Positions 10,985-15,007 of a DNA stretch of 64,000 nucleotides are shown one piece after another; position 1 is the first letter of the stretch, and each line of letters opens with the position of its first letter. The DNA is from an uncultured Poribacteria bacterium (GTDB taxonomy: Bacteria; Poribacteria; WGA-4E; WGA-3G). The stretch is taken from positions 1,116,001 through 1,180,000 of the forward strand of contig OX639973.1 of NCBI GenBank assembly GCA_951828385.1. The letters run 5' to 3'. The translations under genes were made by a program, and so were the position numbers. The notes under the pieces are model-generated. The model did not search any database. It was not told the DNA's origin and worked only from the letters and a program-made list of their open reading frames with translations.

Positions 10985-11236
10985 CTATACTATGTAGAAA
11001 GCGTCAACGTAGACCTTGCGAACGAGCAGCTCGTCGTTCTCCCCACCGTTGCTGCCCATATCAAACTCACCAGCAGGTATTAGCACCATGCCTGCTGGTG
11101 GAGGCGGTGGAGGTACTGTGCCCCCTTCATCAACTTCATCAGGGGGTACTACTGGTTGTTCTGTGTTGCAGCCAAGTATAGCACCGAACAAAAAGAGGGC
11201 ACTATAGAGACATATACAAAGTGTAAGCGGTTTCAT
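10985..11236 (-). pseudogene. Truncated FGE-like lipoprotein
   Basis: 83 codons: a lipoprotein signal (lipobox AILGC), a Pro-rich linker, then the first strands of an FGE-like domain (GMVLIPAGEFDMGSNGG, VYVDAFYI) and a stop after FYIV. The remaining about 200 residues of the domain are missing. A short downstream phrase in another frame (MDFVNA) may be what is left of the next segment. Its first 63 bases, including the ribosome site, are almost identical to those of the LamG lipoprotein at 14198-15007. Confidence 0.75.
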
Positions 11237-11252: not shown

Positions 11253-11344
11253 CTATCATTAAACTTCGGTGTCAAAACCCAATCCTTTAGGTTTGGGATG
11301 TAGACACCGCCTATGTTAATTAGACCAAACCTCTGAAAAAAGAT

Positions 11345-11373
11345 TTGACATTCAGTCTAAAATGTTGTATAAT
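11345..11373 (+). promoter_or_regulatory. Consensus sigma70 promoter
   Basis: TTGACA at 11345-11350 and TATAAT at 11368-11373 are separated by exactly 17 bases: both hexamers are perfect. It points away from the truncated FGE-like gene, and no plus-strand protein gene follows. The predicted start near 11380 falls at the first arm of the structured RNA described at 11378-11458. Confidence 0.75.
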
Positions 11374-11377
11374 TATT

Positions 11378-11458
11378 ATAGTCATTGATTGAGACGTGTA
11401 AACTTCGGCAACCTTGCCGTTGGTCTCAATCACCCTTTTACACGGGCAGAATGACTAT
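11378..11458 (+). ncRNA. Candidate structured RNA with a pseudoknot
   Basis: Four perfect pairings nest in 81 bases. Stem A: ATAGTCATT (11378-11386) with AATGACTAT (11450-11458). Stem B: GATTGAGAC (11387-11395) with GTCTCAATC (11423-11431). Stem D: CGGCA / TGCCG (11406-11410, 11415-11419). Stem C: GTGTAAA (11396-11402), which lies in the loop of B, pairs with TTTACAC (11437-11443), outside B, making a pseudoknot. Stem A closes the whole structure. A perfect promoter sits at the right distance. I do not match it to a known RNA family. The order B-C-D-B'-C' resembles the P1/P2/P3 core of HDV-like ribozymes, but P4 is absent. Confidence 0.45.
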
Positions 11459-11568
11459 GGCTAATTACCATGAAAATGAACATTTCAGTAGGACAAAAAC
11501 TATGCGACATTGCGATCGTATATCCCCTACATTTGATAACGTTTAAGTAAAGTCTGAGTCAACCGAAT

Positions 11569-11709: not shown

Positions 11710-11821
11710 TTGCTTTTCATGAAAATCTTCTCCTTATGGGTTAATTTCATGCCCATTGTGTCTTGTACATCTCTGCAAGCACACCCTCCCTTCAGGGGGA
11801 ATTTGGACATCTCGGTAAGGG

Positions 11822-14197: not shown

Positions 14198-15007
14198 TTA
14201 GTGCGGTTGCGGTGGCGTACTTTTGTTCATCTCTTCACGAATTTCGGCTGCGCTAAGGGCCCGACTCCAGATGCGGACCTCGTCAATACTGCCCCAGAAG
14301 TTACGGGAAGGTTCGTGAGAATTTCCTATCCGAACTGGCGCGGTATCCTCTCCACCCGGGAGCCTCTCTGCGATGACAGTATTGCCAATATTTTCGCCAT
14401 TCAGCCAATACCGGTGTACTCCATCATCTACTTGTGCAACGACATGTTGCCACGTGTTCAGTCTGAGTCGTTTTTGGCTGTTGCTTCCCACAAAGTTCCC
14501 GACACTCAGATGCAAGGAACCATCACTCACTGTATAAAAACTGTAGGAACGCGGGAGGTTACCTTTGGTGATAATGGCCTGCCACGTGGCATTATTGGGT
14601 CCGTGAAAACGCCTCGGATAAATCCAAGCCATCACGGTAACATTTCTATCCACAGTCAAATGATCATAATGATCGATTTCAACGTGATCGTTTACCCCGT
14701 CAAATTCTAATGCTTTGCCAAACTTACCATTAACCACCTGCGGGCCTCCGATGAGCTCAGCACTAATAAACCCATGATCTGAGTTACCCCTCGTGAATTG
14801 GTTCCAAAAGAACTCATCAAAACCCTGCCTGAGGATAAGTGTAAAATCAGACTTTGGAGGCACATCTTTATCAGGTGGAGTTACTGTGACTACTGCATCA
14901 GGGGGTACTATAGGAGGCGGATCTACTGGTTCTTCTGTGTCGCAGCCGATTATAACACTGAAAAAGAGGGCACCATAGAGACATATACAAAGTGTAAGCG
15001 GTTTCAT
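14198..15007 (-). CDS. LamG-domain lipoprotein
   Basis: 269 aa, lipobox IIGC, then a Pro/Asp-rich linker to about residue 55. Residues about 75-255 are a LamG/concanavalin-like sandwich: GKALEFDGVNDHVEI, VTVMAWIYP, RLNTWQHVVAQVDDG, YWLNGENIG and the closing SIDEVRIWSRALSAAEI. Such domains bind carbohydrate or protein at the cell surface. The leader cassette is shared with the truncated FGE-like lipoprotein at 10985. A second LamG protein at 51339 is only distantly similar. Confidence 0.85.
   Translation of the reverse strand: MKPLTLCICLYGALFFSVIIGCDTEEPVDPPPIVPPDAVVTVTPPDKDVPPKSDFTLILRQGFDEFFWNQFTRGNSDHGFISAELIGGPQVVNGKFGKALEFDGVNDHVEIDHYDHLTVDRNVTVMAWIYPRRFHGPNNATWQAIITKGNLPRSYSFYTVSDGSLHLSVGNFVGSNSQKRLRLNTWQHVVAQVDDGVHRYWLNGENIGNTVIAERLPGGEDTAPVRIGNSHEPSRNFWGSIDEVRIWSRALSAAEIREEMNKSTPPQPH

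Follow-up and report, generated by a model that had tools for sequence, protein, structure and literature searches.

A covarying pseudoknot RNA predicted at the 5' end of IS200/IS605-type elements in Candidatus Poribacteria

Overview of the leader RNA

The region 11378-11463 of the window (the whole 64,000-nucleotide stretch of Poribacteria DNA that was analysed) almost certainly specifies a structured RNA that serves IS200/IS605-type elements as their leader. Comparison of copies showed that the predicted RNA is not free-standing and forms the 5' leader of elements of the IS200/IS605 type (IS1341-like) in Candidatus Poribacteria, and this element family with its predicted RNA is repeated hundreds of times in the phylum, across many species. 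The elements are ordered as a left-end hairpin, a promoter and the RNA, which is followed by the tnpB ATG or by no gene, and the first paired strand of the RNA sits at the expected transcription start in each copy. The window copy is, as read from its sequence, an ORF-less relic that has kept the promoter and the fold and has lost its right end. The features identified at this copy were as follows.

11267-11309, plus strand: left-end hairpin of an IS200/IS605-type element (CGGTGTC...CCC-loop-GGG...GACACCG)
11345-11373, plus strand: sigma-70-type promoter, TTGACA-17-TATAAT
11378-11463, plus strand: predicted structured leader RNA, the whole module from A to A'2
11378-11385, plus strand: closing strand A, pairing with A'1 (11451-11458) or A'2 (11457-11463); all 8 pairs show two-sided change in the window's subfamily
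11386-11395, plus strand: 5' strand of helix B, partner 11423-11432; two-sided change in 9 of 10 pairs
11396-11402, plus strand: pseudoknot strand C, partner C' at 11437-11443
11406-11419, plus strand: hairpin D (11406-11411/11414-11419); two-sided change in 4 of 5 modelled pairs
11423-11432, plus strand: 3' strand of helix B; covariation in the window's subfamily
11433-11446, plus strand: hairpin E (11433-11435/11444-11446) with C' (11437-11443) in its loop; covariation of the pairs in types 1, 2 and 3
11451-11463, plus strand: duplicated 3' closing strands A'1 (11451-11458) and A'2 (11457-11463)
11464-11531, plus strand: remnant of an ORF-less element body

Promoter and fold of the window copy

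The promoter was the only 12/12 sigma-70-type promoter-like site between 8000 and 16000, a scan in which about 10 weaker sites were expected by chance, and consists of TTGACA at 11345-11350, a 17-nt spacer and TATAAT at 11368-11373, exactly as in the preliminary description. Promoters matching in at least 9/12 positions were located at the same fixed offset before the RNA in 52/52, 59/60, 28/28 and 32/34 related copies, giving a total of 171/174 in which the two type-2 sets partially overlap. With a strong promoter at a fixed offset, transcription should therefore start at about the first paired base of the RNA. An antisense promoter at 11402-11375 (11/12) was taken as a chance match because it relies on the unconserved C strand.

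The four pairings described previously, including a pseudoknot (A, B, C and D in 81 nt at 11378-11458), were all read directly in their places. With the pseudoknot left out, the nested part of this 81-nt block folded at -30.3 kcal/mol compared to -15.8 +/- 2.8 kcal/mol for shuffled sequences (z = -5.2) and none of 200 shuffles was as good, which bears out the earlier view that such complementarity is unlikely by chance; the comparative evidence given below goes far past chance. Two items had been missed, namely a three-pair hairpin E surrounding the downstream pseudoknot strand C' and a second 3' partner of strand A, termed A'2, which overlaps A'1. As C' lies in the loop of hairpin E, the C-C' pseudoknot amounts to a kissing pair between a bulge and a loop. 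In the fold that the comparison of copies showed, B followed by D makes up a long hairpin, its 7-nt bulge (C) is predicted to kiss the loop of the adjacent hairpin E, and helix A closes the module.

The left-end hairpin resembles the hairpin found at this place in sibling copies. Downstream of the RNA, homology to the siblings stopped at about 11514-11531 in pairwise blastn against L047 and L049, and no right end was found for the window copy, which therefore appears to have lost it. A hairpin at 11784-11799 of the window (CCCTCC-CTTCA-GGGGG) resembles the end hairpin of another IS200/IS605-type element. Two minus-strand ORFs in the surrounding region, 10985-11236 and 14198-15007, have almost identical N-termini (MKPLTLCICLY[SG]ALF), a lipoprotein-like leader that serves two different bodies.

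Compensatory changes in related copies

The window copy (L001) and its nearest copy in the same genome (L002) differed at seven sites within 11378-11458, six of which made up three compensated C-C' pairs (GTGTAAA/TTTACAC in one and ATACAAA/TTTGTAT in the other). Among seven MAFFT-aligned type-2 leaders, 96.6% of the alignment cells were paired, two-sided changes occurred in 16/34 pairs and all five helices covaried, which was reached by none of 500 shuffles. In 52 distinct type-2 copies, 98.5% of cells paired and 24/34 pairs had changed on both sides (0/500 shuffles), while slid controls of the same alignment gave 23-43% pairing; this and all alignments after the seven-copy one were fitted to a model and are biased towards the structure, although the pseudoknot, which is absent from the model, had two-sided changes in 6/7 pairs. 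A single MAFFT alignment of all three subfamilies was misaligned and was dropped.

Two-sided changes were present in 23/26 modelled pairs of the window's own subfamily (type 1). The C and C' strands of type 1 paired at 6.9/7 positions within their own copy and at 3.6/7 with the partners of other copies, a comparison of 27 copies of which five were unresolved. Within the helices of the 52 type-2 copies, G.T outnumbered A.C by 75:6, and it is therefore the plus (coding, top) strand that folds. The search for homologues with compensatory changes suggested in the preliminary description thus found them in related genomes for every helix, including the pseudoknot.

The kissing heptamer C was the most variable part of the RNA, with 18 different sequences in 25 type-2 copies of the own genome, each with its own complement. 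The heptamer was considered as an address for the insertion site and rejected, as 5 own matches to flanking DNA were observed relative to 7.3 expected.

Host elements and their distribution

The same 6.66 Mb genome contained five almost complete copies of the feature and about 35 matches covering the promoter, and almost all of the promoter copies shown lay behind a long hairpin like the left end of IS200/IS605 elements. A model (R1) built from the seven MAFFT-aligned type-2 leaders matched 41 copies in the own genome, and copies were present in 49/85 genomes of the phylum. Three subfamilies were distinguished: type 2 precedes tnpB, while type 1, to which the window copy belongs, and type 3 are largely ORF-less and occur in 14/37 and 31/37 genomes, respectively. 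No RNA was found at five loci of cyanobacterial TnpB relatives (L189-L193), and none of seven IMG/VR viral contigs with the leader sequence pattern matched the model.

Element borders were obtained by comparing copies with different flanks, and a 23-nt core of the left-end hairpin returns at the right end of the tnpB elements. Subterminal hairpins typical of IS200/IS605 elements were found on the left in the copies and on the right in tnpB elements, the window copy having the left one alone. Genes for Y1 TnpA and/or TnpB were identified in family members with Pfam, including OrfB_IS605 and Cas12f1-like_TNB domains in eight TnpB proteins behind the RNA and Y1_Tnp in L053; the window copy itself carries neither gene. 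The preliminary description had considered that the block might prove to be a transposon end, and it is indeed located within IS200/IS605-type elements, close behind the hairpin of the left end, but as a conserved RNA module and not as the end itself.

TnpB was encoded at 56/59 type-2 loci, and the ORF behind the RNA usually begins 96-130 nt past the -10 box. As an independent test, 80 loci were fetched by TnpB protein alone and the 65 Poribacteria loci with an upstream stretch were searched. The RNA was present in 64/65 of these tnpB loci and ended exactly at the tnpB ATG in 62/65. The RNA of L174 was placed at an in-frame upstream ATG, and L182 has lost the RNA at its own tnpB, its match falling elsewhere in the locus. 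No RNA was found at L176, whose TnpB is 50% identical and whose -10 box TATACT is located 6 nt before the ATG (L176:1480-1501), a spacing that suggests a leaderless mRNA. The two tnpA-first elements seen, L053 and L054 (tnpA and tnpB), have the promoter and lack the RNA.

A palindromic repeat, CCGCCCCCTTCCNAGTAACGGGCGGGGACCCCGG, was observed in hairpin loops of several elements, at the tip of hairpin D in L016, L018, L020 and L022 and in the loop of the left-end hairpin in L009/L029. It resembles a REP/MITE-like palindrome that inserts itself, nested, into the tips of hairpins. L004/L048 have another insert in the left-end hairpin.

Elements without an open reading frame

Similarity to TnpA or TnpB was found in 0/30 type-1 loci and 2/30 type-3 loci. 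The fold is kept in these ORF-less groups with compensatory changes and with the duplicated A' strand, and translation control therefore cannot be its only use. The 3' ends of type-3 elements are homologous to those of tnpB elements, for example with 90.6% identity over 117 nt between L044 and L042, and the region of the tnpB elements matched in this way is wRNA-like, the predicted place where the wRNA is made. In type 1, the 3' part of the elements gave weak sub-threshold Rfam matches to sot0042, and homology to tnpB elements did not go beyond short matches at the extreme end, so that it is by extension that we infer a wRNA in the type-1 element body. A further copy of strand A was located just after A'2 in type 3 (L224-L253) and varied with A'2 (e.g. 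CACTT, CTCGT, CTATCT). The A'2 strand could therefore form a local hairpin in these ORF-less elements.

Proposed role of the leader

A Shine-Dalgarno-like word was absent before tnpB in all 66 leaders, compared to 22/33 long window ORFs that have one. Both A'1 and A'2 covaried with A, the complementarity to A of the stretch after A'1 was above that of all shuffles, and the A:A'1 and A:A'2 folds were about 3 kcal/mol apart. The duplicated A' strand is real as predicted complementarity, and the choice between A'1 and A'2 is putative as a switch.

It is the fold rather than the sequence of the leader that is conserved, which speaks against both a ligand pocket and an active site. The explanation we favour is that of a structured 5' cap, which we consider to have about an even chance of being right in its main point. 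The transcript start at +1 would be buried in pairing, and the cap would protect the tnpB mRNA and the wRNA precursors against decay starting at the 5' end. Next to a tnpB ATG without a Shine-Dalgarno sequence, the fold may also hold TnpB synthesis low, and the choice between A'1 and A'2 would alter access to the start codon. A cap is favoured because it fits both the conservation of fold over sequence and the conservation in ORF-less elements, and the Shine-Dalgarno-less ATG directly behind the RNA fits an added restraint on TnpB. Against the cap, the related tnpB of L176 manages without the RNA. A plain 5' cap also needs no pseudoknot maintained by two-sided changes, and a protein partner or a further role of the fold is therefore possible.

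A tnpB translation switch is a less probable but still serious reading, in which A pairs either with A'1, leaving the start region open, or with A'2, extending pairing to 4-5 nt before the ATG, with cotranscriptional folding or a factor, for instance TnpB itself, setting the choice. The end of the RNA at the ATG in 62 of the 65 protein-selected loci, the covariation of both A' strands and the missing Shine-Dalgarno word would suit such a switch, as would the precedent of the IS200 tnpA 5' UTR that hides its own ribosome-binding site (PMC12594629); yet the two ORF-less subfamilies, the window's included, have kept the fold and the duplicated strand. It is rather unlikely, but conceivable, that the leader serves TnpB (OMEGA) elements as another functional RNA besides, and separate from, the 3' wRNA, a 5' module read by TnpB or a host factor, where A'1/A'2 strand exchange would decide between TnpB synthesis and wRNA supply, including in ORF-less elements feeding wRNAs to TnpB in trans.

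The leader is unlikely to be cut off as a stable small RNA acting in trans, as the 5'tnpA RNA of IS200 does in Salmonella (PMC12594629), despite its compact 5' terminal fold and its hundreds of copies. The C and C' strands pair within their own copy and differ among copies, as in the 18 distinct heptamers of the 25 own-genome copies, and a seed common to the copies is not evident. Transposition of IS200/IS605 elements uses top-strand single-stranded DNA, and this same strand is the one that folds, so the structure could act as single-stranded DNA in TnpA-driven transposition; we consider this quite improbable, since the RNA is missing from both elements that carry their own tnpA and its offset from the promoter is fixed in nearly all copies. 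A self-cleaving HDV-like ribozyme without P4, cut near 11386/11387, is hardly credible: the strand order B-C-D-D'-B'-C' (given as B-C-D-B'-C' in the preliminary description) does correspond to the P1-P2-P3 nesting of HDV, but there was no match to an HDV or other Rfam family, P1.1, P4 and the conserved catalytic C segment before C' are all absent, apart from the E strand nothing between B' and C' is conserved in the alignments of copies, and helices and junctions drift freely in sequence.

Comparison with known systems

TnpB nuclease elements are the origin of CRISPR-Cas12, and to our knowledge only their 3' wRNA is generally considered. The leader would add a further RNA fold, strongly covarying, to the 5' end of hundreds of elements in one phylum. 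It is retained even in gene-less copies and may give direct access to the way in which cells or elements control TnpB and wRNA levels. A natural contrast is offered by the tnpA-first elements and L176, both without the RNA.

No family in Rfam 15, riboswitch or other, matched the feature or eight related elements at the gathering score, in agreement with the preliminary description, which had assigned it to no known family. HDV-like ribozymes share the nested pseudoknot order of strands and differ from the Poribacteria RNA in having P1.1, P4 and a catalytic J4/2, while the latter has an extra closing helix A and a kissing hairpin E. The bridge RNA of IS110 is likewise non-coding, belongs to an insertion sequence and has loops that vary between elements (PMC11208158). 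The Poribacteria elements are without an IS110 recombinase and their variable heptamers pair mutually, with no excess of matches to flanking DNA.

The wRNA or reRNA of TnpB (including Rfam sot0042 and RAGATH-18) is structured and in some cases contains pseudoknots (PMC10278001, PMC11061315), and in these respects the two RNAs of TnpB elements are alike. The wRNA, however, is found at the 3' end of tnpB and continues with its guide beyond the right end of the element, whereas the Poribacteria RNA is located by the promoter at the 5' end, between promoter and ATG, in elements that have a separate wRNA-like 3' region.

The nearest likeness in position is the structured 5' UTR, or 5'tnpA RNA, of IS200 in Salmonella, where a stem-loop masks the ribosome-binding site of tnpA (PMC12594629). 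Both are structured 5' ends of IS200/IS605-family transcripts, past the left end and ahead of the coding region. The IS200 structure precedes tnpA and hides a ribosome-binding site, whereas the Poribacteria RNA precedes tnpB or no gene, is lacking from the tnpA-bearing L053 and L054, has a covarying kissing-loop pseudoknot and has no Shine-Dalgarno sequence to hide. No description of a tnpB leader of this kind was found in the open-access literature, and an earlier one elsewhere is possible. Structured 5' UTRs are already known in this transposon family from IS200 tnpA, and the predicted pseudoknot of the tnpB leader, a well-supported RNA family unlisted in Rfam 15, appears to be a new addition to them.
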